Source: Kiloniella laminariae DSM 19542
Lineage (GTDB): Bacteria; Pseudomonadota; Alphaproteobacteria; Kiloniellales; Kiloniellaceae
NCBI RefSeq assembly: GCF_000374005.1
Contig: NZ_KB893135.1
Location: forward strand, 1-64,000
Direction of reading: 5' to 3'
DNA length: 64,000 bases
In this document: in pieces, positions 13,511 through 37,975 of the stretch
Numbering within the stretch: position 1 is the first letter of the stretch
Layout: each line of letters starts with the position of its first letter
Made by a program: the position numbers and the translations under genes
The notes under the pieces: model-generated
What the model was told of the DNA's origin: nothing
Database searches by the model: none
What the model saw: only the letters and a program-made list of their open reading frames with translations

Positions 13511-13564
13511 AGCCACCCAAGAGGAAAACCTAAAAGAATAATCAGCCCCAAACATGAGATATGC

Positions 13565-17215: not shown

Positions 17216-17446
17216 CTAAAGCTTTTCCATCCAACTGGTGGAAAAATGCGCCGGATCCCGCAGGTCAAAGGCATCCCCGACCTGACGCAACTGCACGCCG
17301 TAATAGCCCAGCTTAATCGCCCGGACTTTCACAGGGGCAGTTGCCCCGGATTTTTCAGGAGCTTCTGCCGTAGCCAGAGGAACACGAGCCGTTTTCACAG
17401 CCGCTGCTTTTGCCGCCGTCGGTTTTGCCACCTCTTTTGCCGTCAT
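17216..17446 (-). CDS. small head-region phage protein
   Basis: 76 aa. An alanine/lysine-rich, probably disordered N-terminus (about 1-40) precedes KVRAIKLGYYGVQLRQVGDAFDLRDPAHFSTSWMEKL. This YYG...R.GD.F....FS..WMEK pattern recurs in small proteins encoded between capsid and tail genes of many phages, with no known function. Its ATG overlaps the stop of the cement gene by one base. The terminator follows about 70 bases downstream. Confidence 0.65.
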   Translation of the reverse strand: MTAKEVAKPTAAKAAAVKTARVPLATAEAPEKSGATAPVKVRAIKLGYYGVQLRQVGDAFDLRDPAHFSTSWMEKL

Positions 17447-17868
17447 CAGCTCTGCACACCGGCAACGATGGCAGCAGAGATTTTACCGCTGCTCGGGTTG
17501 GTGCCCGTCACGGTATAACGCAGACGCATATAACGCTCGTTCAGTCCCTTGGGCAGGATATGAAACGAGGTCTGTTTGCCCGCTTTCAGTTCCGCCAAAG
17601 GAATGGTCTGGGCCAGGATTTCACGGGCCGAGGAAAAACCGGTGTTGTCATCAACTTCGATGGCAATTTTCAGGTTGGTCAGGTTGTTGAAATTCTGGGT
17701 CACCTGCACATTGATCGGCACAGCCGTGCCATTACCCGGATCAGAAGTCAGAGCCGCAGAGGCCCCAACGACAGTTCCTGTGGTCCCCAGATCAAGAATG
17801 TTGGTTGACGCAGCTGTTGCGGTAACCGCCTGCTGGTCGGAAAAGGTAAGCTGTTTACTGTGGATCAT
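17446..17868 (-). CDS. capsid cement/decoration protein (Bbp16-like)
   Basis: 140 aa, beta-rich and without cysteines. The opening QLTFSDQQAVTATAASTNILDLG and the closing RYMRLRYTVTGTNPSSGKISAAI fit the Bbp16-type capsid cement proteins of Bordetella phage BPP-1 relatives, which decorate and stabilise the shell. It follows the major capsid gene by 16 bases, the usual place for a cement gene. The assignment rests on motif recall plus position. Confidence 0.7.
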   Translation of the reverse strand: MIHSKQLTFSDQQAVTATAASTNILDLGTTGTVVGASAALTSDPGNGTAVPINVQVTQNFNNLTNLKIAIEVDDNTGFSSAREILAQTIPLAELKAGKQTSFHILPKGLNERYMRLRYTVTGTNPSSGKISAAIVAGVQS

Positions 17869-17884
17869 AAATTATCCCTCCTTA

Positions 17885-18904
17885 TCAGGCAGACAGAACG
17901 CGGGCTTCGGAATTCAGAAGCGCATCGGTTTCACGGATTGGAATGCCGCGGAATGTCAGAACTTCCTGACCTTCCAGTTCGGTGGATTTCAGGCGAACAA
18001 AATTGTCACCTGACCCGGCATTGGTTGCCAACGCATCAAGCGCTTCGAGCACATCGCGGTTGCAATAGATCACCTGACGGCCACCCGCCGCATCACCGCG
18101 ACGCATGCGCGACTGCAGTTTGTAGTAAGCTTTGCGCATGAAGTCATAAAGCGCCACATTGCCCGCCTGCATTTCTGAGACATCAATGTTGGCCACACGC
18201 GATACATAACGCCAGTCTTTCACCGCCAGACCCAGATGCCAGGTGAACTTCTCTTCCTTGACGTAATAGGGATTGCTGTTTTCATCCAGCACCCGCTGAC
18301 GGCCCATGTCATCGCGCTGCAGGCCCGCTTTTGTGCCCTGCGGATAAAGCAGGTGACAGTGACGATCGCCCCAGGTGACAAACCAGATCGAGGTATTGTC
18401 CGACCCTGTACCGCCAGCATCAATCACCTGTTCCCCGGCATCACCGCCGCCGATGACGTTAAAGCGGGCAGACAGGCCCTTGAACTTTTCCGGGGTGGTT
18501 GCCGTGTCGTGATAGAATAGGCCACGAGCCGCTTCCTGGTTCATTGATTCCATAAAGGCCATGGCTTCGTTCAGCCGTACACCCGCTTCATTGCGCGACA
18601 GGCTCAACACCCGCTCGTCAATGGTTGCCAGCGCTTCCAGATAGCCCGTGGTATCGGTGACCTGCTGCTGTTTCGCCTTGGACTGGGTGATGCCCTGATA
18701 GAGCGCGCCCCAGCTGACGGACGGTAGCCCCGTACGAATAGTGTGCAGGTGTTCACCACCCTTGTTGCACTCCATGGCAATGGCATCATCCAGAATGGGG
18801 TTCTGCTGTTTCAGCAGCTCGATGATGGTCGCGGTTGATCCGTTGGGATCGGTCTGTTTGTAGATGTCGATCAGATCGACAAAGGTATTTCCAAGTGTAG
18901 CCAT
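17885..18904 (-). CDS. major capsid protein (BPP-1/podovirus type)
   Basis: 339 aa. Features of the podoviral coat family: an N-terminal helical arm (MATLGNTFVDLIDIYKQ), LPSVSWGALYQGITQSKAK, a long spine-helix region (LSRNEAGVRLNEAMAFMESM), and a beta-rich A-domain ending FRGIPIRETDALLNSEARV, which matches the typical capsid C-terminal strand. It lies between scaffold (two bases) and cement protein. HK97-like fold is known for the family and not visible directly. Confidence 0.85.
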   Translation of the reverse strand: MATLGNTFVDLIDIYKQTDPNGSTATIIELLKQQNPILDDAIAMECNKGGEHLHTIRTGLPSVSWGALYQGITQSKAKQQQVTDTTGYLEALATIDERVLSLSRNEAGVRLNEAMAFMESMNQEAARGLFYHDTATTPEKFKGLSARFNVIGGGDAGEQVIDAGGTGSDNTSIWFVTWGDRHCHLLYPQGTKAGLQRDDMGRQRVLDENSNPYYVKEEKFTWHLGLAVKDWRYVSRVANIDVSEMQAGNVALYDFMRKAYYKLQSRMRRGDAAGGRQVIYCNRDVLEALDALATNAGSGDNFVRLKSTELEGQEVLTFRGIPIRETDALLNSEARVLSA

Positions 18905-18906
18905 TT

Positions 18907-19767
18907 TCAGCCTTCCTTAGTAGATGATGGGTAGAGAATTTCCGCAGCAGATCTGTTGCGTCGGGTTGCACCGGCTCCGCCGGGACTGCTGTCCTCTACC
19001 AGGGAGAGGCCAGCCTTGTGAAAAGCGCGCAGAACCACGGGATCATTAAGAACCCCTGCTTCGTTCAGCACACTTTCCAGTTCAGACCCGCCAAAGGCCC
19101 TGAGCGCCCGATTGGCGGTTCTGACATTCGCATCCAGATTGGGACCCCACTCCTGCCGCAAGGTACTGATGGTGTCGTCAACCTGTTGTTTGAGATATCG
19201 TTCGCGTTCGACCTGTTGGCTTTCCATCGACTGGGCCTTGGCCTGCAGATCGAGGTCAGACAGGGCCTGTGCCTGTTGCGGAGACAGCCCCAGGGCATGG
19301 GAAAGCTCGCTGATGGCAGAACGATACTGCCCCCATTGCTCTTCCGACCCTTCAAGCTCCAAAGCTTCCGGGATCTGTAGCTCATAGCCTTCCGGGCTTT
19401 CCGGCACCCCGAGCGCGGCATAAAAAGCATCGACCTCTTCCGGGGAAGCATCTTCCCCCGGCAGCCGGACAAAGCCTTCGGCTTCTTGCTGTGGTTTCAT
19501 ACCTTCTGCGGCTGTGGGATTTTGCTCACCTCCGGCAATAGCTGGATCATTCAGATAGTGGCTATCTATTCCCGGTTCCTGATCCCCTTCTGCTTGAGAT
19601 CGGGCATAAAAAATCCCGCTCTCTTGTGAGGCGGGACCGGAAGCATAGTCTCCATCCTGTCGATCAGGCCGATAACCTGGGGGATCAGCAGTCATAGGTG
19701 ACCCACTGGGGGAACCGGGAATACCCGGTCCGTTGTCAAAAGAACTAGAGACGTCAAAATCACTCAT
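18907..19767 (-). CDS. capsid scaffolding protein
   Basis: 286 aa, acidic. The first about 110 residues are low-complexity, rich in Gly/Ser/Pro/Asp. The centre is a glutamine-rich coiled coil (ELSHALGLSPQQAQALSDLD, then KAQSMESQQVERERYLKQQV), and the end is basic (GATRRNRSAAEILYPSSTKEG). Acidic coiled-coil proteins immediately before the coat gene are scaffolds, whose basic C-terminus contacts coat protein. The terminal AEILYP resembles the start of the C-terminal module found in four accessory proteins of this phage. The start codon overlaps the stop of the preceding gene (ATGA). Confidence 0.75.
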   Translation of the reverse strand: MSDFDVSSSFDNGPGIPGSPSGSPMTADPPGYRPDRQDGDYASGPASQESGIFYARSQAEGDQEPGIDSHYLNDPAIAGGEQNPTAAEGMKPQQEAEGFVRLPGEDASPEEVDAFYAALGVPESPEGYELQIPEALELEGSEEQWGQYRSAISELSHALGLSPQQAQALSDLDLQAKAQSMESQQVERERYLKQQVDDTISTLRQEWGPNLDANVRTANRALRAFGGSELESVLNEAGVLNDPVVLRAFHKAGLSLVEDSSPGGAGATRRNRSAAEILYPSSTKEG

Positions 19768-20042
19768 TCCTGTTGATCTTCCTCTTGTGCGAGATAGGCG
19801 GCTTTCGCCAGCTCGGCCCGAAGGTCGGCGCTGATCGAAGCCTTGCGGAGAATGTCAAAGGCAATGGCCCGCTTGCCATCATTGAACACGGACGGCCCGC
19901 CCGGTGGCGTGGCTTCAAAAGCCGCCGCCTGGTCCAGAATATCCGCCAGAACCAGTTGTCCGTCTGCACTTGCGAACAAACGGGCATAGGCATCAACCAG
20001 CTCATGCTGTTTTTTCAGGGAAAAATTCCAGCCCTTAAGCAA
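19764..20042 (-). CDS. Bbp19-like small head protein
   Basis: 92 aa if translated from the TTG at 20042, which is preceded by AGGAGGAGG at good spacing. No ATG fits, and the open frame to 20087 begins inside the portal gene. YARLFASADGQLVLADILD and NDGKRAIAFDILRKA match Bbp19-type proteins encoded between portal and scaffold in BPP-1-like phages. It overlaps the portal stop by eight bases and the scaffold start by four, so expression is probably coupled. Confidence 0.65.
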   Translation of the reverse strand: MLKGWNFSLKKQHELVDAYARLFASADGQLVLADILDQAAAFEATPPGGPSVFNDGKRAIAFDILRKASISADLRAELAKAAYLAQEEDQQE

Positions 20043-21714
20043 GCTCACCTCCTCCTGCGACAGCAGCTTCCAGTGCAGCCGGATCAATTCCCGCCGCCCC
20101 CATCGCTTCCATCACAGGCAGAGCCTTGCCAGCCATATCAATACTCTGGGCCTGTTGCGCCGCCATGGCCTGTTGTTGTTCAGCCTGTGCTCTGGCCTGT
20201 CGACGGGCCTCGACCAGCTCAATCGGGTTGAGCAGATCCGCGGGCATACCATTGATATCGGCCCGCGCCCGGATAATCCGGTCATGGTCAAAGTTATCCA
20301 TGATAGACGGATCAAACTGGGCCTGTTGCGCAGCCGTTTCCAGGGTGCGCTGAATACCGGCATCCTCGGCAGCCCGGCGCAGTTTTGCCATCGGGCTGGT
20401 GAATTTCAGCGACAGCTTGCGTCCCTGCAGTATTTCCGGGCGTGGCGGCAGGTCAATAATACCATCGGCGGCCTGCCGTTCGAGAATGGCATTTTCACGC
20501 ATCACGATTGAGGCCAGCATTTCCTCCTGCTTGGCAAAAGGCGGGCCGATCAGCTCACTCTTTTCCTGCGCCCGCAAAGCCGCTTCATAGGCTGTCATGT
20601 CCGGCTTGTTGACCAGGATCTGCCAGAGATCGACATAAAAATTGGCTCCGATATCCGCCTGCTTCTTGGCAATCAATTGCTCGCCGATATCCGGGCGAAC
20701 GCCTGTGGCAATCGGCTGAATTTTCAATCGCCCGTCTTCTGTGATCAGATCTGGATTGATTGCCCCGGCACTGAGGTTCAGACGACGCTTGAGCTTCTGC
20801 ACTGTGGCAAAAGCGGGGGATACCGCCTGTTCCGCTGCGGCGATCGTGGTCTTGTTCATGATGTTGAGCTGCTTGATATCCGGCAGCGCCATCATTCCCG
20901 GTCCCCAGCCATAGGCATGACCATCGCTTTCGACAAAGGACGAGGCATGGATTGGGAATTCGTAATAGCCCGACTGTCTCAGCACATGGTTCTGCCCTTT
21001 AAGCACATGTACCGACGGCCAGGGCAACTGCGTTGCCACCCCGTCTGCAAGCGAGGTATCAATCGCGTGTATGATCTCGAATTTCTGTTCCAGAATATCT
21101 GGCTTGTCCATCCGGACCTTCAGAAATTCCGGCAGGTTTTCCTCACCGAATTCCTGGATCATCTGACGCAGTGTCAGTTTATAAACCCGATAGAAAGTAT
21201 CTATCTGCCCCCAGGCCGTGGTTGCCAGGAAGCATTCAATCATCGGGATCATGCGATAGCGGATCGGTGGCAGATCCATTCCACCGGGGCCGCGCCCCAG
21301 CACTTCCTCTGTCATCATTACCTGATTGCCATAACAACCGAGTGAGCGGAACATACGCTGGGTATTGGCGACAAAACCGGACTGCGCCATATAGCGTACA
21401 GCAAAAAGCTTTTTGGTCTGCGCCTCGGCCCAGACCTGTACCTCGTCGTTCTGCTTGAGCTCATCATCCATCGGCTCCAGCCCGTGCCAGATCGACCCGC
21501 GCGGGATCAACAGGCTTTCAATCGCAGCCGCAAAACGCGCCAGATCCTGCAAGGGACGCGAGCTGTACATCTTGGACATATCGCCGATAGAGCCTTCGAG
21601 CACCGACCCAAAGGGATCAAGACGTTCTGCTGTCTCCCTCCAGATCTTCTCGAACTTCTGCCGCTCCTGCTGCAACACGCTCTGGCGGTTGATCACCTTT
21701 TCAGCAAGTTCCAT
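20035..21714 (-). CDS. portal (head-to-tail connecting) protein
   Basis: 559 aa from the ATG at 21714, chosen for GGAGAGCTTT upstream. The longer open frame to 21846 runs through a terminator hairpin and was rejected. Typical podoviral connector: ELAEKVINRQSVLQQERQKFEKIWRE start, SSRPLQDLARFAAAIESLLIPRG, WGPGMMALPDIKQLNIMNKTTI, a mid-region with QKLKRRLNLSAGAINPD, and a glutamine-rich C-terminal barrel (RQARAQAEQQQAMAAQQAQ). Twelve copies form the DNA channel. First gene of the head operon. Confidence 0.9.
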   Translation of the reverse strand: MELAEKVINRQSVLQQERQKFEKIWRETAERLDPFGSVLEGSIGDMSKMYSSRPLQDLARFAAAIESLLIPRGSIWHGLEPMDDELKQNDEVQVWAEAQTKKLFAVRYMAQSGFVANTQRMFRSLGCYGNQVMMTEEVLGRGPGGMDLPPIRYRMIPMIECFLATTAWGQIDTFYRVYKLTLRQMIQEFGEENLPEFLKVRMDKPDILEQKFEIIHAIDTSLADGVATQLPWPSVHVLKGQNHVLRQSGYYEFPIHASSFVESDGHAYGWGPGMMALPDIKQLNIMNKTTIAAAEQAVSPAFATVQKLKRRLNLSAGAINPDLITEDGRLKIQPIATGVRPDIGEQLIAKKQADIGANFYVDLWQILVNKPDMTAYEAALRAQEKSELIGPPFAKQEEMLASIVMRENAILERQAADGIIDLPPRPEILQGRKLSLKFTSPMAKLRRAAEDAGIQRTLETAAQQAQFDPSIMDNFDHDRIIRARADINGMPADLLNPIELVEARRQARAQAEQQQAMAAQQAQSIDMAGKALPVMEAMGAAGIDPAALEAAVAGGGELA

Positions 21715-21763
21715 AAAGCTCTCCAGTCTGTCTCTTTTCAAGGAGACCCGGTTAAAATCAGGC

Positions 21764-21811
21764 AACAAAAAACCCTCCCAAAACCGGTAAAGGTTAGGTT
21801 GAGAGGGTTTT
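21764..21811 (-). terminator. intrinsic terminator upstream of the portal gene
   Basis: On the minus strand AAAACCCTC pairs with GAGGGTTTT across a loop of about 25 bases (itself partly paired), followed by a run of Ts. It lies between the CPBP protease stop (21936) and the portal start (21714), so it can end the accessory transcript or act as an attenuator of the head operon. Confidence 0.6.
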
Positions 21812-21935
21812 AAACAATCTTGGGAACCACCTTGCAGCAGACCCATTTATCCAAGGACGAATATAGCCCCTGTCAAAAGATCAAACAAAGTATCATGGAA
21901 AATAATTTCCTATATTTTGATATATATCTGCGCTT

Positions 21936-22910
21936 TCATTCTCCGCTTGACGGAACTGCTTCGATAGAACCGCTGAACCCGCTGGAGATATTTTTCCTGT
22001 AAAACGTCATCCCCAGATAATAGAGCAGCGCCGCCAGAAAAATATTCTGAACCGCTGTAAGAATGCCGGGTTCAAAATCCATCATAATAGATCCTATCCC
22101 CATATACATGTCAGAACTTAGCCGGGTATCAAATATCAGAATGGACCAGTTCCAGCCTATATGAAGCGCAATGGAATATTCCAGACGCCCCGTTTTCAAA
22201 GCCAGAAATGTAAAAAGCAACGACGCCAGCCCATAACTCAGATAGGCGTACCAGCCAAAAACCTCAACTGGGGGATTGGTCAGATGCATGGCAAAGAAAA
22301 GCCCGGCAACAATCAGAAGTATAAGCCACCAGCGACGGGTAAAACGTCCGACCAGCTGCAGCAGATATCCCCGGAAAAACAGCTCCTCGGCCATGGCCTG
22401 AACAGCCACAATCGGGATCATTACAAGAACAGCGCCCCACCCCCAACCGACATGGGGTTCAAAGGAAAATGTACTCCCGTCGAGCCACCCAAAAATAAAA
22501 GCTGAAATCGAAACCAGCACCAGACATGTAACTGCCAACCCCCAGATGCTTTTCCATTGGACGACATCACCCGGTGCGATAAGATTGGAAACTTTCATCC
22601 GGAACATCTTGAGTGCAACAAAAATTCCGGGAAAAACGACCGCAACCGAAAGAAAATAAGTCAGGGTGCGCCGGATCGTAGCGTCCCGGTCGAAGTCCTC
22701 TATTTTCATCAACAGTTCTGGAGTTTTCAGTAAAGCAGGGTTTTTCAACACGTCAGGATTGGACAGAAAATACCCGACACCAACAACAACCATAAGAATT
22801 CCGGAAATAAGTACCAGCGGCAAAAAACTGACGACCCAGACCCAGAACCCGGTCTCTCTGTTATCAAAAGCAGATAAGAGTTTGTTGGTGGTGATATCAA
22901 TATTCTGCAT
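21936..22910 (-). CDS. CPBP family intramembrane metalloprotease
   Basis: 324 aa from the ATG at 22910, next to GGGGGGAAAT. The upstream ATG at 22931 lacks a ribosome site. Eight or so hydrophobic helices carry the CPBP (Abi/CAAX) motifs: MAEELFFRG (Glu-Glu...Arg), FAMHLTNP and HIGWNW, all metal/catalytic residues present. Family members cleave membrane or prenylated substrates, and several protect against bacteriocins or phage. It lies alone between the portal terminator and the LYP-module genes, same strand as the phage. It is a probable cargo gene; its substrate is unknown. Confidence 0.8.
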   Translation of the reverse strand: MQNIDITTNKLLSAFDNRETGFWVWVVSFLPLVLISGILMVVVGVGYFLSNPDVLKNPALLKTPELLMKIEDFDRDATIRRTLTYFLSVAVVFPGIFVALKMFRMKVSNLIAPGDVVQWKSIWGLAVTCLVLVSISAFIFGWLDGSTFSFEPHVGWGWGAVLVMIPIVAVQAMAEELFFRGYLLQLVGRFTRRWWLILLIVAGLFFAMHLTNPPVEVFGWYAYLSYGLASLLFTFLALKTGRLEYSIALHIGWNWSILIFDTRLSSDMYMGIGSIMMDFEPGILTAVQNIFLAALLYYLGMTFYRKNISSGFSGSIEAVPSSGE

Positions 22911-23079
22911 ATTTCCCCCCGGAAATTTCATGATGGTTATTTTTGCTCAGGTTTCTCACCCAACAATCCAGAGCCAGCCACCACTAGCATTTTCTCGGGT
23001 TTCGTCAAAAGAAATTTATTCAAGTTTAGCGAGAAAAAGGAACAATACAATCTACTCAAAACACTCCGGCCAAACTCAC

Positions 23080-23376
23080 TTAAATATTTCCTCGCTCATA
23101 AAGTGCCCGGCGAACATTTAGGGTTCCCATGCCCCGCAAACGCTGCACCGGAGAAGGCCCCAATGATGCATAAGGGGAAAGTATCGGCTTTTCCTCAAAC
23201 GGGCGATACTGTGGATAGAGTACCTGTTCTGGCCTTCTTTGCGTGGCTGTAAAAGGCCCCATACGAATTCCGCCCCCACTGTTCTTTACAGATCCCGGAT
23301 TTGACAGGGACTTGCGAACAAACTCTCCCTGCTCCCGGACAGGTTCCTCTCCAGAGGAAATAGCCAAAAAACTCAT
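23080..23376 (-). CDS. LYP-module phage protein A (short)
   Basis: 98 aa, no membrane segment. N-terminal about 45 residues are polar and probably disordered. Residues 46-98 form a module starting RRPEQVLYPQY, continuing PYASLGPSPVQRLRGMG and ending LNVRRALYERG. Over that module it is nearly identical to the next gene upstream (23394-23705), and clearly related to the C-termini of the proteins at 23708 and 31195. The ribosome site AAAGG precedes the ATG by eight bases. It is the last of three genes in a row with 17- and 2-base gaps. The function is unknown. The shared tail suggests a common binding partner. Confidence 0.65.
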   Translation of the reverse strand: MSFLAISSGEEPVREQGEFVRKSLSNPGSVKNSGGGIRMGPFTATQRRPEQVLYPQYRPFEEKPILSPYASLGPSPVQRLRGMGTLNVRRALYERGNI

Positions 23377-23393
23377 TTATCAAACCTTTCCAC

Positions 23394-23705
23394 TCAATTG
23401 TCGCCACGTTCATAAAGCGCCCGGCGGACATTCAGCATCCCCATACCGCGCAGGCGCTGCACAGGCGATGCTGCTAATGACACATAGGGTGAAAGCGCTT
23501 TCTTTTCCTCAACAGGGTGGTATTGGGGATAAAGTACTTCCTCCGGGCTTCGATCAATTCGTCTCAACGACGTCAGAGAGTTTGCCCCTACCCTGTTTTG
23601 AACTGGTTTTGACGCTGATCCGTTTCGGGATGCAACAAGACTGTTTTGCCGTTCCCGCCATTCTGCTGTAGGTTTTTGGGGTGTCCTGCTGCTCACCAAA
23701 CTCAT
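23394..23705 (-). CDS. LYP-module phage protein B (short)
   Basis: 103 aa. A polar, glutamine/asparagine/serine-rich N-terminus (1-50) is followed by the same 52-residue module as protein A: RSPEEVLYPQY, SPYVSLAASPVQRLRGMG, LNVRRALYERG. The two genes are tandem duplicates that keep the module and diverge in the N-terminus. Its ribosome site (GGGAG) is inside the last codons of protein C, so translation is coupled. Confidence 0.65.
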   Translation of the reverse strand: MSLVSSRTPQKPTAEWRERQNSLVASRNGSASKPVQNRVGANSLTSLRRIDRSPEEVLYPQYHPVEEKKALSPYVSLAASPVQRLRGMGMLNVRRALYERGDN

Positions 23706-23707
23706 AT

Positions 23708-24616
23708 CTATACTCTCCCGTAAGCGGCACGCCGCCTGTTCAAGGCCGACAGTGCCGGCGCCCGCCGAACCGGCGTACTGCCAAAAGAAACCCCGGGTGC
23801 CGCAGGCAGATCTTCAACCTCTAGGGTGTAGGGATAGAGAATATCCTCGGGGCGTTTTTCAATTAGCCTGGCTGGGGTCCTGTATTCGCTCGAACGCTCT
23901 GGGGTAGTAGACCTTTCATCCAGTGCATCGGACATACTTTGTGTATCAACCAGATCCCTGGAGCGATACCCTGCCATGTCAGCCGCAGCCAAGGCTGTTT
24001 TTGCAACTACACCAGCAGGGGTCGTTTTCCCAATTCCCATAAAATGTGGACTTAATAAAGCTGCTGTGAACTCAGGAACATTAAAGCGTTTCTCTGTTGC
24101 TAGATTTCCATAGCTATCATAGGTCAATTCTCCACGCACCCCAGGAATCAAGTTAGATAAAAAACTATGAAAAGCAGACCGAACTGGATGATTATATTTA
24201 GCTACAGTTTTAGCATACGCTTGGGCAGCAACAGGCTTCATCTGTGACATTTTTCTGACTTCATGGAATCCCATCGGAGTTCCACTCATACCTGAATATT
24301 TCCCAAGCTCGTTAGCTTTATTGTATTGATCACTCCACTCCTGCCAGCTACCAGTAAATTCGTCAGGTGGAGCAGGTGTGGGATTCCATCCATGTTTTTT
24401 TGTTTTCGCACGTATTTCTCTCATACGCTCAACGCTAACAGATGGAGCCTGCTTGCTCGCCGTTCCCCATGTACCGTTCCCGGCTTTGCTCATCCGGTCT
24501 TCTGGCCTGTTGTCACCGGGCGATCTACTGTCATTTGAGCGTTCACGACCAAAGCCTCTATCTGAACCGCCAAACCCTTCGTTTGTACCGCCACCTTCTG
24601 TTGACCCAAAACCCAT
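23708..24616 (-). CDS. LYP-module phage protein C (long)
   Basis: 302 aa from the ATG at 24616, with AGGAG upstream. The frame opens to 24910 but passes through a terminator and lacks a start signal. Three parts: a Gly/Ser/Asn/Arg-rich disordered N-terminus (about 1-60); a helical middle with AFHSFLSNLIPGVRGELTYD, FNVPEFTAALLSPHFMGIG and an alanine helix (GVVAKTALAAADMAGYRS); and a C-terminal module KRPEDILYPYT, GVSFGSTPVRRAPALS, LNRRRAAYG. Middle and end both align with the protein at 31195-32202, so these are paralogues. No enzymatic residues are recognised. It may be a virion-associated or late accessory protein. Confidence 0.65.
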   Translation of the reverse strand: MGFGSTEGGGTNEGFGGSDRGFGRERSNDSRSPGDNRPEDRMSKAGNGTWGTASKQAPSVSVERMREIRAKTKKHGWNPTPAPPDEFTGSWQEWSDQYNKANELGKYSGMSGTPMGFHEVRKMSQMKPVAAQAYAKTVAKYNHPVRSAFHSFLSNLIPGVRGELTYDSYGNLATEKRFNVPEFTAALLSPHFMGIGKTTPAGVVAKTALAAADMAGYRSRDLVDTQSMSDALDERSTTPERSSEYRTPARLIEKRPEDILYPYTLEVEDLPAAPGVSFGSTPVRRAPALSALNRRRAAYGRV

Positions 24617-24672
24617 TTCGGCTCTCCTAAGATATAACTTGTCCATCTTTATTGCGGGACAGACCTTCCAAC

Positions 24673-24698
24673 AAAAAAGGCCGCGCACTTGCGCAGCC
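24673..24698 (-). terminator. intrinsic terminator upstream of the LYP gene trio
   Basis: Minus strand GGCTGCGC-AAGT-GCGCGGCC (one mismatch in eight) then six Ts. It lies 57 bases upstream of the protein C start with no minus-strand gene nearer than 31.2 kb before it, so an attenuator of a long late transcript is the likely role. Confidence 0.65.
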
Positions 24699-25198
24699 TG
24701 CAAAAAAACTCTGGAACAAAAGACACAATGATCCGGAAAAGAGTTTATCCGCTGGGCAAGAGCAATAAAAAGTATCTCGCGCAGCCAGAGGGAAAATAGA
24801 GAACAGAAATAATACTGCCGTTCTGCTTTCCTATGCGTAGATACAGCTGCAGGAAAACAAACCAGCATCAGTGATTGATCAGAGATTTGTTGCGCCAGCT
24901 CGCCCCTCAAAACTTCATTTCAAAATAAATCGTGATTTCATAATAAAATTATTTTTCACCCTGCCTTTTCATTTAAGGAGTGTTTCTCATTATAAAAAAC
25001 AACCATAAGAATATTTTATGCACTTATTAGGAGATAAACACACATAACCACACCTAATTAAAGTATAAAAAAATAGATTCGAAATAAAAAACCCACTTAA
25101 CCAAGAATTAATTGAATCAATATAAAAATTCATTCTCGTTATTAGCGCTGTCGTTGAATATTCATTTCGTATACAAACCAACAACAAGGAACTGTACA
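24699..25198. other. AT-rich intergenic region before the pilus operon
   Basis: About 500 bases without a credible gene. From 24.9 kb the sequence becomes strikingly AT-rich (many runs of A and T), up to the TTG start of the pilin gene. Such a leader commonly contains promoter elements and binding sites for silencing proteins, and the pilin, chaperone and usher genes read away from it. I could not identify a convincing -35/-10 pair. Minus-strand open frames here have no ribosome site. Confidence 0.5.
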
Positions 25199-25693
25199 TT
25201 GAAAAATTCACTAAAATACATCGCCTATAGTGTTATTACTATGACCGGAGTTGTCGCTTCAACAGGCACCATGGCTGCTGACGGAACCGGAAATGCCTCT
25301 GCCCAGATCCAGCAGGCCATCTCAATCACCGAAGACACCGCCATGGATTTCGGGAACACTGCCGTTGATGCCTCCGGGGGAACTGTAACCATTTCTACGG
25401 CTGGTGCTGTCTCCGGCCCGGCTGGGTACACCTTCTCCGGCTCCCCTGCTGCAGGTGCCTTCACCGCTTCCGGTGATGCCAGTACAGCTGTAACCATCAG
25501 CTTTACCAACGGCTCGCTAACGGGCCCGGGGACAGCCATGACCCTGAACAACTTTACCCATGATGCCGGGGGCACACCAACCACAGACGGTTCTGGGGAT
25601 CTTGCCTTCAACGTTGGCGGGGATCTGGTTGTCAACGCCGCACAGGCGTCTGGTGCCTATGCCGGAACCTATACCGTAACAGTGAACTACTAG
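25199..25693 (+). CDS. DUF4402 family pilin-like exported protein
   Basis: 164 aa from the TTG at 25199, supported by AAGGA eight bases upstream and because it yields a compact signal peptide (KNSLKYIAYSVITMTGVVAS...AADG). The mature protein is Gly/Ala/Ser/Thr-rich beta sequence with ISITEDTAMDFGNTAV at the start, TYTVTVNY at the end and no cysteines, as in DUF4402 proteins secreted by alternate chaperone-usher systems. It should be the polymerising surface subunit. The following hairpin and then chaperone and usher genes complete the operon. No separate tip adhesin gene is present. Confidence 0.75.
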   Translation: MKNSLKYIAYSVITMTGVVASTGTMAADGTGNASAQIQQAISITEDTAMDFGNTAVDASGGTVTISTAGAVSGPAGYTFSGSPAAGAFTASGDASTAVTISFTNGSLTGPGTAMTLNNFTHDAGGTPTTDGSGDLAFNVGGDLVVNAAQASGAYAGTYTVTVNY

Positions 25694-25708
25694 ACCAAAA
25701 CTTCGATG

Positions 25709-25729
25709 GCGGCTCCTTTACGGAGCCGC
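25709..25729 (+). terminator. attenuator hairpin between pilin and chaperone genes
   Basis: GCGGCTCC-TTTAC-GGAGCCGC is a perfect 8-bp stem 15 bases after the pilin stop, followed by a weak GGTTTTA rather than a long T-run. Partial termination or mRNA-end protection here would give more pilin than chaperone/usher, as is usual in fimbrial operons (inference). Confidence 0.6.
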
Positions 25730-25768
25730 TGCCGGTTTTACAGATGCTATCTTCCGGGGGGAAGTAAG

Positions 25769-26671
25769 ATGAAAAACAATTCTGATATCATTGCAGCAGA
25801 TCACAACAACTCGACATCAATTCGAAAAGAGCTCTGCAATAGAGAAAATTTTAAAGTAAAATTGTTTTTTTTACTTTCCCTCTCCTTCTCTTTACTCTCC
25901 TCGCTCATCCCCGCTTCTTCGCCTCAGGCTGCTGGTGGGCTGGTTGTCACCCCGCAACTGGTTGAACTCGACAGTCGCAACCGCAGCACAGTCCTCACCC
26001 TGGCCAATCGCGGTGACAAGCCCGAAACCTACCGTATCTCGGTCATCAACTACCGCATGGATGACCAGGGCAACCTCTTCCCCACCGGCACACCGGCTGC
26101 AGATGAAGGTTTTGCCGAAGGTCTCTTCCGCTATGCCCCGCGCCAGGTCACTTTGGAGCCGGGCAAACCCCAGACCGTGCGCATTCTCTATCGCCGCCCG
26201 GCAACACTGGCCGAGGGGGAATATCGTTCCCACCTCCTGTTTCAGCAGGTTCCTGAAGCTCTGCCCCAGGCCGCAAGTTCCTCAACCCAGGCCGGACTTT
26301 CTGTCGAGATCAAAACCATCTTCGGCATCACCATTCCTGTTCTGGTCCGCCATGGACAGCTGGAATCCCAGGGGCAGCTGACCAATATCCAGCCCTCACA
26401 GCACAACGGCGAAAAAAATATCAGCCTGCGTATCGCCCGATCCGGCAAACAGTCCCTGCGTGGCGACCTTGTTGCTCTGGCTGGTCGCACCGAAGTTGGC
26501 CGCCTGAACAATGTTGCAGTTTATCTTTCAACCCCTTACCGCGACGTAGTCATGCCTCTGCAGCAGGATAAACTCTCTGTTGCCCCGGGTCAGGATATCC
26601 TGATCGAATACCGCCCCCGTGGTGACGACAAGGCCCCGGTCATCGCCACAGGCAAGGCAATAATCAATTAG
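25769..26671 (+). CDS. periplasmic pilus assembly chaperone
   Basis: 300 aa from the ATG at 25769 next to GGGGGGAAG. An unusually long n-region (about 35 residues) precedes the signal hydrophobic core (LFFLLSLSFSLLSSLIPASS). The mature part has the PapD-like first Ig domain: LVVTPQLVELDSRNRSTVLTLANRG, RYAPRQVTLEPGKPQTVRI with the subunit-binding Arg/Lys region, and EGEYRSHLLF; then a second Ig-like domain. It holds DUF4402 subunits in the periplasm until donor-strand exchange at the usher encoded next, 35 bases downstream. Confidence 0.8.
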   Translation: MKNNSDIIAADHNNSTSIRKELCNRENFKVKLFFLLSLSFSLLSSLIPASSPQAAGGLVVTPQLVELDSRNRSTVLTLANRGDKPETYRISVINYRMDDQGNLFPTGTPAADEGFAEGLFRYAPRQVTLEPGKPQTVRILYRRPATLAEGEYRSHLLFQQVPEALPQAASSSTQAGLSVEIKTIFGITIPVLVRHGQLESQGQLTNIQPSQHNGEKNISLRIARSGKQSLRGDLVALAGRTEVGRLNNVAVYLSTPYRDVVMPLQQDKLSVAPGQDILIEYRPRGDDKAPVIATGKAIIN

Positions 26672-26706
26672 GAACAACTGAGAACGCCAGACAGCGGTCT
26701 TTGGCC

Positions 26707-29703
26707 ATGCGACGCTTCCCGCCACTTATATTTCTGCTGACAATCGCCTTCACCCTTCATCTCGGCCCGCTGGCTCTCTCAGCAAAGGCCGGGGATCTGG
26801 ATGAAAAGCTTCTTCCGGCATTTGTAAAATCAAAACTCCAAAAGACTAAAGCCCAGTCCTCCGAGACACTTCAGACCGCACAATCACCAGGAACACCTCC
26901 TCCCGCTCCCTCTTCTGATCTCGAGCAGGAAGTTTTCCCTCTCCCCTTACCCGGGGAATTGACCTGGTCAGAACGCCCTGACGACGAGATATTTGTTTTT
27001 GGCCTGCAGCTTGAACGCTATGCCCTGAGCGATGCCTTTCTAATTTTCTATGATGGCCGGGAAGCCTTTGTCCCGCTTGGTTCTTTTTTGGAAGAGCTGG
27101 AATTCCCCATCACAGTAGATCCGGAAAGCGGCACGGCTTCAGGCTGGTTTCTCAATGATGACCGGGCCTTCTCTCTCGATCTTCAGGCTGGCCAGGTCAC
27201 CATCCAAGGCCGTATCCGCCCGATCACGCCCGGGCGGGTAGAACGGCATCCCGATGACCTTTATGTATCTCTGTCAGAACTGGAAAGCTGGTTTCCGCTT
27301 CTACTCGAAGTGCGGTTTCAGGAACTTCAGATCGCCATCCGCCCCCTCGAGCCCCTGCCACTTCAGGAACGCATCGCCCGCGAGATCCGCCGTGCCCACC
27401 TGACAGATCTGCACGAGATCAAAAAGCTGCAGCGGATTGAGCCGGAAAACGACTGGTTCGAATGGCCTTTCGTCGATACCAGTATCCAGATCTCGGGACG
27501 AAACACAGCAAACGAGCGACAGGGGCAAGCCCGCCAGACCACAACTGTCGCCGGGATCTTCGCCGGGCTCGACAGCGAGGCAACCACCGTCGCCAGTACC
27601 GATCTTGAAAATCCGAACATGCGTCTGCGCATGGGCCGACGATCTCTGAGTGGCGGACTGCTGGGTCCCCTGGATGCCCGCTCCTTTGCTATCGGCGACG
27701 TATCAACCCCCGACTTGCCCCTGGTTGCCCAGAATGCCGTGGGCCGGGGGTTTGAGATTTCATCTTTCGACCTTGATCGACTGGAACAGACCAACCGTGT
27801 CACCCTCCGCGGGGAACTTCCGGTCGGCTGGGAGGTCGAAGTTTATCGCAACGGCGAGCTGCTTGATTTCCAGACCGACCAGGACATCGGCAATGGCAGG
27901 TATGAATTCGCCAATCTGCCAACCCTTTCCGGTTTCAATGAATTTCGTCTGGTGTTCTTTGGCCCCCAAGGGCAGAAACGTGAAGAATATGAACGTTACT
28001 TTGTTTCGCCGGAACTGGCTGAACCGGATCGAACTTCCTTTCGCCTTGCCTTTAACCAGGCCAATCGCGATCTGATTTCTTTTGACGATCAGCAGAACAG
28101 CAAAACAGACGACGGCGAAAATCGCTTTATCTTTCAAGCTGAACACGGCTTGGGCGAAACGCTTTCGGTCTCGGCGGGCCTTGCCTCGCTTTCTGTAGAT
28201 GGAGAACGGCATCAGTATTTCTCCACCGGGGCGCAGACCACGCTCTTCGGCACCCTCGGCAATCTGGATCTGGCAATTGATGATACCGGAGGCCTGGCCA
28301 TTGGCGGGCGGGTCCAGACACAGGTCGGGTCCTGGTCGCTTTTTGGTGAACAGGTCTGGTATCAGGATTTCCATTCGGAACAATCGGGAAGCGGGTCTGC
28401 CGACAATCATCTTCGCAGCAGGTCCACGGCAAGGATCAATGGTCACCTTCCCGATCTCGGGCTGGGTCATCAACCGGTTTCGGCCTCCATCACTCATGAG
28501 ACAGGGGAAGATGGCAATTGGCAGACCAATATTTTCAATCGCATCTCAACTGTTGTGCGCCCCCTGAACCTCGCCCTTTCCTCCAGTACCCGGTTATCCC
28601 GCGATCAGGAAACTCAAAGCGATGCCCGCCTGCTGGTCAGCACTTTGGTTGACGACTTCCGCCTGCGCGGCGAACTCGGGTTTGACGTCGCGCCAGCCCA
28701 ACAGTTCACTCTGGCGGCCTTTACCACGGACTGGCGGATCAATCAGGATATGGGGGCCCGGGCCGGACTGCGTCATTCCCGTGGCGGGGAAAGCATCACA
28801 ACAGCCAGCCTCGGATTGAATCGGCAGTATGAAAATTTTTATCTTGGCCTCAATGTCGATGCTGACAGCAAGGGAGACTACGGCGCCCGCCTCGGTCTGT
28901 CCTTCAGCTTTGGCCACAACCCCGCCGATGATACGATCGAAGTTCGCGGCAGACCCTTTGCCCGGCAAAGCGCTGTCAGCGCCCATGTTTTTCTCGATCG
29001 TGATAACGATGGCCTCTTCGGCCCCGGCGACGAGGCCATCGAGAATGCTGGTTTCAAAGGCTCGCATCTTCCCCGGGGCACCATAACAGATCCAGAAGGA
29101 TCTGCCTTTGTTGTCGGGCTGCAACCTTACAAAGCGGTTGATATTGCCCTCAACGAAGCCACACTAGAGGACCCCTTCTGGATGTCGGCCCAACCGACAC
29201 GTGAACTGGTCATGCGCCCTGGCACCACAACGTCACTCCAGTTTCCCGTTATTATGACTGGCGAGATTGATGGTACGGTTCTTCTGGCCGATACAGAACG
29301 CCCTCCCCTCGAGACCGCTGCCGGGCCAGCAACAATTCCCAATATCACAGAGATCCTGCCGTCCTATGACCCGACTGCGCGCCCTGGCGATGCCCCGAAG
29401 AACCTGGGATCTCCTGGCCTTGATAACTCCGGGGGCCCTACGGACCTACCTTCCGGCACAGAACCCGGTGCTGGTATCAACATAAGGCTTCATGACAGCA
29501 ATGGCACTCTTGTTGCCGAGAGTATCACAGCCTATGACGGCTTCTTTTTCCTCAACCGCATTCCCTACGGAAGCTATACTCTCAGCCTGGATCCCGAACA
29601 GCTGTCCCTGCTCGGCTACAGCCCCGGCCCGGGGCAAGAGCTGACCATCACAGACGACCAGCCTTTTGCCGAAAGCATGATACTCACAGCCTACAGGCCC
29701 TAG
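26707..29703 (+). CDS. outer membrane usher-type protein
   Basis: 998 aa from the ATG at 26707. After a signal peptide (LIFLLTIAFTLHLGPLALS...AKAG) come an N-terminal chaperone-binding part (FVFGLQLERYALSDAFLIFYDG, VPLGSFLEELEFPI), a long beta-barrel with an embedded plug (VTLRGELPVGWEVEVYRNGELL...GRYEFANLP) and a C-terminal region with VSAHVFLDRDNDGLFGPGDE and a proline-rich stretch before a final carboxypeptidase-regulatory-like beta domain (SITAYDGFFFLNRIPYGSYTL). This fits the atypical usher family paired with DUF4402 subunits. It forms the outer-membrane pore. It closes the operon; no terminator is obvious in the following 200 bases. Confidence 0.8.
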   Translation: MRRFPPLIFLLTIAFTLHLGPLALSAKAGDLDEKLLPAFVKSKLQKTKAQSSETLQTAQSPGTPPPAPSSDLEQEVFPLPLPGELTWSERPDDEIFVFGLQLERYALSDAFLIFYDGREAFVPLGSFLEELEFPITVDPESGTASGWFLNDDRAFSLDLQAGQVTIQGRIRPITPGRVERHPDDLYVSLSELESWFPLLLEVRFQELQIAIRPLEPLPLQERIAREIRRAHLTDLHEIKKLQRIEPENDWFEWPFVDTSIQISGRNTANERQGQARQTTTVAGIFAGLDSEATTVASTDLENPNMRLRMGRRSLSGGLLGPLDARSFAIGDVSTPDLPLVAQNAVGRGFEISSFDLDRLEQTNRVTLRGELPVGWEVEVYRNGELLDFQTDQDIGNGRYEFANLPTLSGFNEFRLVFFGPQGQKREEYERYFVSPELAEPDRTSFRLAFNQANRDLISFDDQQNSKTDDGENRFIFQAEHGLGETLSVSAGLASLSVDGERHQYFSTGAQTTLFGTLGNLDLAIDDTGGLAIGGRVQTQVGSWSLFGEQVWYQDFHSEQSGSGSADNHLRSRSTARINGHLPDLGLGHQPVSASITHETGEDGNWQTNIFNRISTVVRPLNLALSSSTRLSRDQETQSDARLLVSTLVDDFRLRGELGFDVAPAQQFTLAAFTTDWRINQDMGARAGLRHSRGGESITTASLGLNRQYENFYLGLNVDADSKGDYGARLGLSFSFGHNPADDTIEVRGRPFARQSAVSAHVFLDRDNDGLFGPGDEAIENAGFKGSHLPRGTITDPEGSAFVVGLQPYKAVDIALNEATLEDPFWMSAQPTRELVMRPGTTTSLQFPVIMTGEIDGTVLLADTERPPLETAAGPATIPNITEILPSYDPTARPGDAPKNLGSPGLDNSGGPTDLPSGTEPGAGINIRLHDSNGTLVAESITAYDGFFFLNRIPYGSYTLSLDPEQLSLLGYSPGPGQELTITDDQPFAESMILTAYRP

Positions 29704-29903
29704 ACTTGCTCGGGTAAATCAGGGTTTTCAGACAAACACCTCGCCCCCAACCAAACTTCCTTACCGTTTCTAGCTGTTATAGCCCGCAACGCGACCCCGA
29801 ACAAAACTGTCGAGTTTTTCGCTCTGTCAGGATAACATCGCCAGATCACGGGAAAGGATATACCTCCGTACCAAAGGAAGAGATAAAAGAAAAGAGGAAG
29901 AGC

Positions 29904-30323
29904 ATGTCGGTCAATATACTGTCAGTAGAGCTGCTTTCGGAAATCAACTGGTTTGCCGTTTTGACCGGAACCTTGGCGGCTTATGCTTTTGGCGCGCTCT
30001 GGTACTCACCACTTCTGTTCCTGCGCAGCTGGTCACTTGCCGCGAACCTGAACGACAAGCTCAGCCCCGGACCAGTCGTTTTTGCCAGTGGCTTTCTCCT
30101 AACCCTGCTCGCGGCGACAGCTCTCGCTGTTCTTTTGGGCCCCGCGCCCCAGCTTTGGGACAGCCTTATCCTCTCTTTACTTTGTGGCGGCGCTCTGATC
30201 TGTTCCTCCATCGGTGTAAACTATCTTTTTGCCGGGCGCAGTCTGCGACTCTGGCTCATAGATGGCGGCTTTCAGATCGGGCGTTTTCTATTGATCGGAC
30301 TTGCCCTTGGGCTTGGGCACTGA
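29904..30323 (+). CDS. DUF1761 family membrane protein
   Basis: 139 aa with four membrane helices. The first carries NWFAVLTGTLAAYAFGALWYSPLLF, the recognisable start of DUF1761, followed by three more helices. Function of the family is unknown. GAGGAAG precedes the ATG at suitable spacing. It stands alone 200 bases after the usher on the same strand within the phage accessory region. Base composition resembles the chaperone-usher genes, so it may have arrived with them. Confidence 0.7.
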   Translation: MSVNILSVELLSEINWFAVLTGTLAAYAFGALWYSPLLFLRSWSLAANLNDKLSPGPVVFASGFLLTLLAATALAVLLGPAPQLWDSLILSLLCGGALICSSIGVNYLFAGRSLRLWLIDGGFQIGRFLLIGLALGLGH

Positions 30324-30539
30324 ACAAGCCTGAAACCCGACAAAAGTACCCGGCATCAAGCTTTTTGACCTGCTCAGGATTTCTTAAAAACACTAAACCC
30401 TTGATTGTTGATAAAAATAAATCAAATATATTTACAATTCAATTTCTTGACATATATCAGTTACTAGATCAAAATTTCATACAACCTTAAAGACACACCA
30501 TGTCTTTGGACAAGCGTAAAGCTTACTCCAGATGAGATT

Positions 30540-30953
30540 ATGACCACACCGACCAAACAAATTTCATCTTCTGGCAGTGCCCCCGCTTCCTCACTTGCCT
30601 ATACCCGGGCTTCTTTTCATCTGAAGCCTGCAGAGAAGTTCACAGAGAAATTAATGCCCAGCTCTGACATGAGTTCCAAACCCGCCAATGCAGACGACCA
30701 CAAAATCCGCAAGGCCGGTACAGGCAATGCCAGGGACCAAAGAGACATAGACGCTGATCCAGAAACCTCTTCAAAGAGATTTCTGAGAAAACTTCTTGCC
30801 AGCTTTGCCGGGGCCGTTCTCGGTGCAGCTTTCGCCCTGGCCCTCAGTTGGTTTACAATTGAGTTTATTGGCGGCGATTATGGATTGAGTACCTTGATCC
30901 TTGCCCTGGTCGGCGGCGTTATTGGCTCCGCCACAGGCCGCCTTATCAAATAG
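30540..30953 (+). CDS. small membrane-anchored protein of unknown function
   Basis: 137 aa. The first about 80 residues are polar and probably cytoplasmic (many Ser, Lys, Asp). Two glycine/alanine-rich membrane helices follow (about 86-108 and 115-133), the second ending GGVIGSATGRLIK. No family recognised. Several internal methionines (for example at residues 39 and 44) could be the real start, since no clear ribosome site precedes 30540. It is followed by the hairpin at 30995. Confidence 0.45.
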   Translation: MTTPTKQISSSGSAPASSLAYTRASFHLKPAEKFTEKLMPSSDMSSKPANADDHKIRKAGTGNARDQRDIDADPETSSKRFLRKLLASFAGAVLGAAFALALSWFTIEFIGGDYGLSTLILALVGGVIGSATGRLIK

Positions 30954-30994
30954 CTTTCAGCAACATCTCGCCTGCTGCCTTGATTAACAACCCC

Positions 30995-31038
30995 AAAAAC
31001 CAAAAGCGCCGCTTCGGTCACAGGGACCTCACGGCGCT
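30995..31038 (-). terminator. terminator after LYP-module protein D
   Basis: Minus strand AGCGCCG ... CGGCGCT encloses a second small stem (GGTC/GACC), then TTTTGGTTTTTGG. It lies about 155 bases past the stop of the minus-strand gene at 31195. The T-tract is interrupted, so strength is uncertain. Confidence 0.5.
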
Positions 31039-31194
31039 CAGGTACAATCAATCAGTCGTGGGCGCATCCTAGCCAAATTAGGAAGCTGCGCAACAGTTAA
31101 TTCAGCAGATACCCCTTTTGACACAAGCTTTAACAATTGCTTAATATTACACTGGCCTGAGACACAGCTTCCCCCTGAAACGGCATAAAAGCAT

Positions 31195-32202
31195 TCAGCC
31201 TTTATCAAACCTAGCCCGTCGGCTGTTAAAATTGGACAGTTTTGGCGCCCTGCGTACGCCCGACGGTACAAAAGTAACCCCCACGCCAAACTGCGGCTTG
31301 TCTTCTTCCTTAAGCGCATAAGGATAAAGCGTTTCTGTAGCCCTTTCATACAGCGACTTGGCAGGCTCAAAATTCCCATGATTATCATCCTGCCTCTCCC
31401 GAATCCCGCCACCCAGGCCAGTGCCCAAACCCGAACCCGAACCAAGACCAGAAGGTCCTGGAAGTCCTGCAGCCCCATAACCCGACTTTATCCCGGATAC
31501 CTGTTGGCCATTTCTGAAATTGGAATGAGCCCTGGTCGAGCTGTTGGTTGGTGCTTGGACACCAAATTCGTTCAACGCACGATAGCCGTATCTTGCTAAC
31601 TGGCTCGCGGCTGGCGCCCCCCTGCCCCCGACCAATCCAAGGCCAAGACCAACGGCGTCAAATTGATCAACACTGGCCAGTTCACCTGTTTTGGGATCAA
31701 GGCTCAGGTGTGAATCCACACCGGGCATAAAAAATGACCCAAACCTGTGCATAAAGGCCGCAAACGGGCTCCGGTGTTTTGCGATAGCCCGACGCGAGTT
31801 TTCTGTAATTGTGTCATACCCTCGCGCCTTTCCCATCGCATCAAGCTGCTCGGGACTATAGGCTTCGGCTTCGGTTTTAAAGCCGCCGCCCCTCACATTT
31901 GGAACGCGTGAAATTCCATTGAGGGCCACGTCCTTCTCATCCAGATAATCTTCAAGTGAGGAAAGAACGGCCTGGGTTACCGCTGTTCTCGTTCTTGTTC
32001 TCTGGCTTGGTGGCTTGTTCAGCTCTCTGGTTGCGATACTGCGGTTATGGCTGGAAGTATCAGAACCGCCATTACCAGCATCACTCCGCCCGTTACCTGT
32101 GGCGTCACTTCCGCCCCGACCTGCCCGCCCCTCCAAATCTCTGTTACCTTGATTGTTATGGCTCCCGGTTCCTCTTGCTCCCCGACTTGATCCCTTGGGC
32201 AT
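31195..32202 (-). CDS. LYP-module phage protein D (long)
   Basis: 335 aa from the ATG at 32202 with AAGGAG eight bases upstream. The N-terminus (1-70) is disordered, rich in Gly/Ser/Asn/Arg with repeated GxGGSD. The middle contains HRSPFAAFMHRFGSFFMPGV, LSLDPKTGELASVDQFDAVG and a glycine/alanine segment, aligning with protein C. A glycine-rich linker (GLGSGSGLGTGLGGG) leads to the C-terminal module ERATETLYPYAL, GVGVTFVPSGVRRAPKLS, FNSRRARF. It is the only minus-strand gene among plus-strand cargo, which marks it as original phage content. Role unknown; possibly carried in the virion. Confidence 0.65.
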   Translation of the reverse strand: MPKGSSRGARGTGSHNNQGNRDLEGRAGRGGSDATGNGRSDAGNGGSDTSSHNRSIATRELNKPPSQRTRTRTAVTQAVLSSLEDYLDEKDVALNGISRVPNVRGGGFKTEAEAYSPEQLDAMGKARGYDTITENSRRAIAKHRSPFAAFMHRFGSFFMPGVDSHLSLDPKTGELASVDQFDAVGLGLGLVGGRGAPAASQLARYGYRALNEFGVQAPTNSSTRAHSNFRNGQQVSGIKSGYGAAGLPGPSGLGSGSGLGTGLGGGIRERQDDNHGNFEPAKSLYERATETLYPYALKEEDKPQFGVGVTFVPSGVRRAPKLSNFNSRRARFDKG

Positions 32203-37022: not shown

Positions 37023-37655
37023 TCAGTTGGCCTGTTCGGGTTGGGTGGCCTGTTCGGGTTGCCCGGGCTGCACCCCGCCAGCCTGAACCTCGCCAACCTG
37101 AACCCCACCGGTCTGAACCCGTTTGCGTCCACGGGCGAGGCGTTCCATCAGAGCACTTTCGATCCCGACATCCACCCGTTCCTTGAAGGCCTGAACCGAG
37201 ACATGTTTGCCGATCAGCTCCAGCGCCTTGCCCGCGCCCGCATACTGGAACTTGTATTCCCCGGCCGCATCCGGTACCGGGCTGCGCTGCATACAGCGTT
37301 CGAACAGCTCAACCGCCCCGCGCAGCACGTAATCCGCATCGATTTTCAAGCGCGCGGACCGCTCGGCCAGCGCCTGATCCACCGCTGTCCGTACCGCTGG
37401 CATGCCCAGCACCCGGCTGCCGCTCTGCTGCGCGCCTGCTGGCGAATATCCCGCCCGCACCGCCGCCTGTGTGGCATTGAGATCAACCAGATATTCCTCG
37501 ACAAAACGGCTTTGCCGCGCCGACAGTTTGGCACTGGACTGTTCATGAAACTTTGCCTTGATAGCTCTCTGGGTCGTTCTCTGGGACTTTCCAGACGCGT
37601 TGCCCGGATCTGACGCCCCAGCCTTCCCGGCTTCCGGTTTTGACTTCTGCTGCAC
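37023..37655 (-). CDS. terminase small subunit
   Basis: 210 aa if started at the GTG at 37655, which has GGAGG just upstream. A 279-residue frame exists to 37862, but its extra N-terminus is unlike the family. The Terminase_2 domain is clear: KLSARQSRFVEEYLVDLNATQAAVRAGY (helix-turn-helix), then SGSRVLGMPAVRTAVDQALAERS and a helical oligomerisation region. The C-terminus is a repetitive tail rich in Gly/Val/Gln/Pro (two 18-bp and three 15-bp DNA repeats). It recognises viral DNA and recruits the large subunit. Confidence 0.85.
   Translation of the reverse strand: MQQKSKPEAGKAGASDPGNASGKSQRTTQRAIKAKFHEQSSAKLSARQSRFVEEYLVDLNATQAAVRAGYSPAGAQQSGSRVLGMPAVRTAVDQALAERSARLKIDADYVLRGAVELFERCMQRSPVPDAAGEYKFQYAGAGKALELIGKHVSVQAFKERVDVGIESALMERLARGRKRVQTGGVQVGEVQAGGVQPGQPEQATQPEQAN
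37028..37121. repeat. tandem repeats at the 3' end of the small terminase gene
   Basis: Two copies of an 18-bp unit (37028-37045, 37046-37063), then three of a related-looking 15-bp unit (37077-37091, 37092-37106, 37107-37121). All are in frame and encode the PEQATQ and VQxGE-like tail of the protein. Confidence 0.8.
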
Positions 37656-37975
37656 AACCCCTCCAAAACCGTTCAAGATCAATAGACTGAACAGAATTTT
37701 AAGGCAGCCAGAGCCGTCCCTCAACTCATCATAAGCTTGAAACACAAACCGGGATGGCCCGGAAGGGAAGCTTTCCCTTTCGGAGAAAACATATCGCTGG
37801 TAACACCAGCCCCGCCTGACCAGCCCCAATACAACACCAGTCCCGGCACAGTCCCGCCCCAAAACCCGGCGGGTTAAAAAAAATCTCCATTCGGGACTTA
37901 TGCTTTTGCTGGCTTTGGGTGCTGGCTTTGGGCTAAAAGCGGATAACGGTGTGTTTGAGAGTTAGGGATTGCGGA
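37656..37975. other. intergenic region between terminase and topoisomerase genes
   Basis: About 320 bases between divergent genes. No convincing gene: the open minus-strand frame is an extension of the small terminase frame without family similarity. Runs of A (GTTAAAAAAAATC near 37880) and Pro/Gly-coding-like low complexity are present. Promoters for both directions should lie here, but no clear boxes were identified. Confidence 0.5.

Follow-up and report, generated by a model that had tools for sequence, protein, structure and literature searches.

The capsid targeting signal of phage T4 is N-terminal and is cleaved by the head protease. In T-even phages, the internal proteins (IPI–IPIII in T4) combine very diverse bodies with this one conserved capsid-targeting signal (PMC3012670). 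In the 80alpha system, a helix and hook made up of the C-terminal 16 scaffold residues dock into a cleft in the coat protein. SaPI1 CpmB, a protein of 72 residues, has the same C-terminal RIIK helix-and-hook motif and changes the size of the capsid (PMC5644958). RcGTA-like gene clusters are reported to be absent from Kiloniellales (PMC6821227).

Here we describe proteins of the genus Kiloniella that carry a common C-terminal module, starting from four of them (M1–M4) encoded in the window, the whole 64,000-nucleotide stretch of K. laminariae DNA that was analysed. As with CpmB and 80alpha, a second set of proteins resembles the C-terminal, presumably coat-binding, end of the scaffold. Unlike that pair, the Kiloniella motif is LY-P/G and belongs to a different capsid lineage, the copies are encoded together with the scaffold in one cluster, several per genome and with long proteins among them, and the tag continues for ~40 more residues. 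The T4 internal proteins offer a second likeness, one short conserved signal on diverse proteins, with the T4 signal sending its bearers to the prohead scaffold core. In Kiloniella, however, the conserved signal is C-terminal in all 24 tagged proteins and resembles the tail of the scaffold itself.

The structural cluster and its inheritance in Kiloniella

The window is the start of a 561-kb contig in a genome of 4.4 Mb. A podovirus-type structural cluster similar to those of Bordetella phage BPP-1 and Salmonella phage epsilon15 occupies its minus strand from ~1165 to 37862, with GP7-type capsid, Bbp16-like cement, connector, terminase and tail proteins in order, and with a putative scaffold, an internal virion protein and an M15 peptidase (Table 1).

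Table 1. Coordinates of the tagged proteins, the scaffold and neighbouring genes in the window
Feature	Position	Strand	Remark
Bbp16-like cement protein	17446..17868	-	
Major capsid protein, GP7 family (PF20911)	17885..18904	-	presumed docking partner
Putative scaffolding protein, phrog_458/phrog_3742	18907..19767	-	annotated 'protease' in relatives
Scaffold tail, RRNRSAAEILYPSSTKEG	18910..18963	-	element proposed to be copied at module start
Portal / head-to-tail connector (PF12236)	20035..21846	-	
M1, tagged protein, 98 aa, short class	23080..23376	-	orthologue in G002, dN/dS 0.14
M1 C-terminal module, RRPEQVLYPQY...LNVRRALYERGNI	23083..23238	-	
M2, tagged protein, 103 aa, short class	23394..23705	-	dN/dS 0.29 vs G002
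M2 C-terminal module, RSPEEVLYPQY...LNVRRALYERGDN	23397..23552	-	
M3, tagged protein, 302 aa, long class	23708..24616	-	start by ribosome-binding site and homologues
M3 C-terminal module, KRPEDILYPYT...LNRRRAAYGRV	23711..23857	-	
M4, tagged protein, 335 aa, long class	31195..32202	-	
M4 C-terminal module, ERATETLYPYA...FNSRRARFDKG	31198..31347	-	
Large terminase	35503..36960	-	8/9 genomes of genus
Small terminase (PF03592)	37023..37862	-	right end of cluster
Host topoisomerase/RecD-like gene	37949..42451	+	conserved right neighbour

The close relatives in GTDB are K. laminariae, K. majae, K. litopenaei, K. spongiae, strain EL199 and a MAG. The capsid gene is present as a single copy at the cluster, 94–100% identical, in seven of the nine Kiloniella genomes; all eight genomes that are at least 90% complete have the large terminase. 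Among the other members of the family, 14 genomes were searched and none has the cluster. The right end always adjoins the same host gene. Between G000 and G002, dS amounts to 0.44 for the capsid gene and 0.42 for this host neighbour, and in the remaining pairs it mostly ranges from 0.6 to saturation for both genes; the dN/dS of the capsid gene is 0.003–0.027. No integrase, repressor or replication genes were seen in the cluster, and several plus-strand genes had no match of any kind. As judged from these sequence comparisons, the cluster is apparently a vertically inherited, domesticated phage element of the genus and not an ordinary or recent prophage. Like RcGTA, it is a phage structural cluster that is inherited vertically at one locus and evolves under purifying selection, with no replication or integration genes seen, which makes it a candidate for a new gene-transfer-agent-like element; it differs from RcGTA in its podovirus, BPP-1-like ancestry. 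Our literature search found no description of the cluster. A second GP7 capsid gene of the relative K. laminariae genome, divergent (53%) and located near a contig end (L083, G002:C61:124000-143539), perhaps belongs to an ordinary related prophage.

Several other genes lie within the cluster. Between M3 and M4 (25112-29703), three plus-strand genes encode a DUF4402 protein, what is probably a pilus chaperone, with a weak match to PapD, and an usher-like protein of 1000 aa, with homologues at the same place in the relative K. laminariae genome and none in the other species examined. An Rce1-like CAAX-type membrane protease gene between the portal gene and M1 (21936-22931) is likewise found only in the window genome and in the relative K. 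laminariae genome. Plus-strand ORFs opposite the tail genes (12653-14173) are partly conserved in other Kiloniella (24–47% identity) and have no Pfam match, and a DUF6973 protein of the tail region (14143-14733) is present in only some species.

A C-terminal module on four proteins of the cluster

The preliminary description had claimed that four minus-strand genes, here M1, M2, M3 and M4, encode one C-terminal module of ~50 residues, and our searches bear this out. Leave-one-out HMMs, each built from the other three proteins and run against the 356 window ORFs, recover M1, M2, M3 and M4 with E = 1.7e-26, 1e-25, 5.5e-16 and 3.7e-11, respectively, and the next-best window ORF reaches only E > 0.1. 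With M3 as a single query against its own whole genome, M4 (2e-6), M2 (3e-5) and M1 (1.5e-4) are the only matches. The most likely start of M3 is 24616 (ribosome-binding site AGGAG), replacing 24910, and that of M4 is most likely 32202. The second half of the module reads PVRR...L..LNxRRA. The middle PGV..L..D..G.LA block, which had also been claimed for the two long members, is indeed common to M3 and M4 and recurs in most long homologues of other species.

Across seven Kiloniella genomes, the module is found on 24 proteins, three or four per genome, which fall into a short class of 98–107 aa and a long class of 264–417 aa (the start of one copy, in G004, is unclear). Of the 24 modules, 23 retain LYP even though the remainder diverges, and the tagged proteins, with dN/dS of 0.09–0.29 where dS is measurable, evolve faster than the capsid yet remain under purifying selection. 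In each Kiloniella genome the module is confined to the capsid cluster. A search of 58 genomes of the order with M3, and of 385 genomes of the class with the full module, gave matches in Kiloniella only, setting aside one partial match in G272 (E 4.5e-4, model positions 22–51) that does not contain LYP and is taken as chance. No match was obtained with M4 in a single-protein search of viral contigs or with M2 in a tblastn search against phages, and the module alignment offers no segment of sufficient conservation for scanning viral contigs.

The module has no Pfam or PHROG family in searches with M1–M4. The body of M3 gives one below-cutoff match, to HABP4, as its only Pfam-type match, M4 gives a single PHROG match at chance level, and none of the four matches the Gp10-like family (PF21628) over the body. 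A profile match to a known unrelated family, for which the preliminary description had named the tail assembly chaperones, was looked for and did not occur; on these Pfam and PHROG searches, the module as a tail assembly chaperone or a member of another known family is rejected.

Scaffold tails and Gp10-like proteins

The gene that immediately precedes the capsid gene encodes a phrog_458 protein, which we regard as a putative scaffolding protein from its position and its tail; no protease domain was found in it, though databases label it a protease. This label, also relevant to the epsilon15 counterpart (L174:5224-5940), may be wrong throughout public annotation. In Kiloniella the protein ends RRN(R/K)SAAEILYPSSTKEG, and this tail is nearly invariant in seven species, with whole-protein identity down to ~60%. 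The scaffold had earlier been said to end in AAEILYPSS and thereby to echo the start of the module. The echo holds, with scores against the cluster's own scaffold tail of 33 for M2, 25 for M1, 23 for M4 and 21 for M3, as compared with nine of 4000 unrelated ORFs in other phages that score at least 20; the end point was wrong, because the true C-terminus is AAEILYPSSTKEG, almost invariant in the seven species. As an example, NRSAAEILYPSS of the scaffold is paired with YRSPTEILYPAE of a tagged protein of the Kiloniella MAG.

Capsid-anchored loci gathered from IMG/VR and phage records reveal the same tail beyond Kiloniella. Among 195 distinct relatives, 182 have [LMF]Y in the last 20 residues of the protein before the capsid gene, compared with 236 of 3153 other sense ORFs (7.5%). 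The tail usually reads LYP or LYG near the end, and most of the exceptions are LF or IY variants. Since the scaffold was picked by position, the tail is a family-level rule and not a curated annotation. In another phage, a 162-aa ORF (L195:6490-6978) ends HKIMYPTMFESNE and the scaffold contains AAEIMYPSM; this ORF is possibly a further tagged protein, of a different family.

We ran a profile built from the scaffold tails alone against every other ORF of either strand. Its best other matches, every one of them encoded on the coding strand, are the Kiloniella tagged proteins and a protein of ~105 aa that belongs to the Gp10-like family (PF21628/phrog_825). This family includes epsilon15 gp10 and BPP-1 Bbp20, and 69 of the 75 Gp10-like proteins found carry the tail. 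They share the LY-P/G tail with the tagged proteins and differ in having a beta-rich body and the tail at the extreme end; no member was recognized in the Kiloniella cluster. The tails of the scaffold and the Gp10-like protein vary together, as SAFYPKK and DAFYPDG in epsilon15 (common AFYP), RSAAEVLYGK and KSAAETLYGN in phiV10, and RAAKLY and RAAKFY in BcepC6B, and metagenomic loci pair DRVSLLYP with DRVKQLYG and DARSLYPNS with DARSLYPNS. In tests that kept a single phage from each capsid cluster, at 95, 85 and 75% identity (54, 32 and 13 clusters), the similarity of the two tails within a phage is reached by none of 10,000 partner permutations, with or without LY itself, although the relatedness of the phages restricts the number of independent events behind this figure. 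The tails of two unrelated proteins would have no reason to match within each phage unless they had one common partner. We also ranked all ORFs other than scaffold and Gp10-like proteins by how closely each resembles the tail of its own scaffold: the first three places, and seven of the first nine, go to Kiloniella tagged proteins. A general degradation tag was also considered and is rejected, as the tail varies among phages yet stays in step within each.

Proteomics of infectious epsilon15 particles picked up gp10, and re-modelling in 2022 assigned the outer-shell density probably to a 130-aa protein, which left gp10 without a place and its earlier placement on the outer surface judged wrong (PMC9207676). 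The Pfam name of PF21628, 'major coat protein-like', rests on the earlier cryo-EM assignment, now judged wrong, and epsilon15 gp10 itself (L174:7705-8040) carries the scaffold tail. In a fold search with the Gp10-like model, the matches were insignificant, the best being single-strand DNA-binding proteins (E 0.29), and therefore we claim no function for the family.

Possible roles of the tagged proteins

A C-terminal motif is common to the tagged proteins and the scaffold of the same capsid system, and the resemblance of the tag to the coat-binding end of a scaffold, as first proposed from the window, is strongly supported by the family-wide tail before the capsid gene and its co-variation with the Gp10-like tail. 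We consider it fairly probable that the module begins with a copy of the scaffold's coat-docking peptide, put to a second use in recruiting accessory proteins to the procapsid. By analogy with 80alpha and SaPI1, the SAAEILYPSS stretch would be this docking peptide, and a short amphipathic stretch ending in LYP would have been copied from it to the module start. The tagged proteins would bind the scaffold's own site inside the assembling capsid and would thereby become part of the procapsid, as internal cargo or as accessory head proteins. The same tail would bring in Gp10-like proteins as well as M1–M4, and the proteomic identification of gp10 in epsilon15 virions supports such incorporation. 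The other ~40 residues of the module (PVRR...LNxRRA), which are specific to Kiloniella, would probably provide extra affinity or retention. We infer the coat protein as the partner, a final position inside particles and a role for the proteins there.

Several observations count against this reading. The LYP lies ~40–47 residues before the C-terminus in the tagged proteins and within the last 10–15 in most scaffolds, the predicted structure of M3 is of low confidence (mean pLDDT 55) and without a usable fold, and databases carry a protease label for the phrog_458 protein, which we take for the scaffold from its position and the lack of a protease domain. In addition, a 2025 paper on epsilon15 still regards gp10 as a capsid staple, and a virion study of BPP-1 named only Bbp17 and Bbp16, the two most abundant proteins.

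As the main rival, the tagged proteins may be alternative or auxiliary scaffolds that dock on the coat by their tails, set the size or shape of the head and may leave the particle afterwards. M1 and M2 have only ~100 residues each, half of which is tag, and gene transfer agents commonly have small heads; the Kiloniella cluster is apparently domesticated. A precedent is provided by CpmB, which copies the 80alpha scaffold motif, binds the coat at the same site and alters the capsid size (PMC5644958). We nevertheless think this role rather unlikely, as the long-class bodies are variable, span 220–370 residues and have no confident fold, three or four tagged proteins per genome exceed the need of a size switch, and Gp10-like proteins bear the tail in ordinary full-size phages. 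It is less likely still that the shared tail binds a partner other than the coat (portal, terminase or a host factor) and marks helpers of assembly or packaging: the tagged genes are indeed located between those of terminase and portal, but scaffold C-termini of this design are known to bind coat, as in 80alpha and P22, and across the 195 relatives the tail tracks the gene directly before the capsid gene. A last reading takes the tagged proteins for ordinary phage accessory proteins that evolve fast and are related by duplication, their LYP likeness to the scaffold being coincidental. It is very improbable, because for all the shortness of the motif and its 7.5% background, M1–M4 all reach scores attained by only ~9 of 4000 other ORFs, and LYP is nearly invariant amid divergence elsewhere.

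Docking by a scaffold-like tail would constitute a testable capsid-loading signal for a large podovirus lineage that includes the model phages epsilon15 and BPP-1. If correct, it would explain why gp10 is found in epsilon15 virions despite its misfit to the outer-shell density, and attaching a tail of some ten residues could direct foreign proteins to these capsids. More tentatively, a domesticated BPP-1-like podovirus may have become an inherited particle that is loaded by the tag with fast-changing proteins and delivers protein and possibly DNA, with the scaffold tail serving the entire epsilon15/BPP-1 capsid lineage as a general code for loading proteins; we see this as a possibility and not as the expected outcome. 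For Kiloniella, the cluster represents a previously undescribed, genus-wide and apparently domesticated phage element, and a candidate for a particle of podovirus ancestry that is gene-transfer-agent-like or carries protein.
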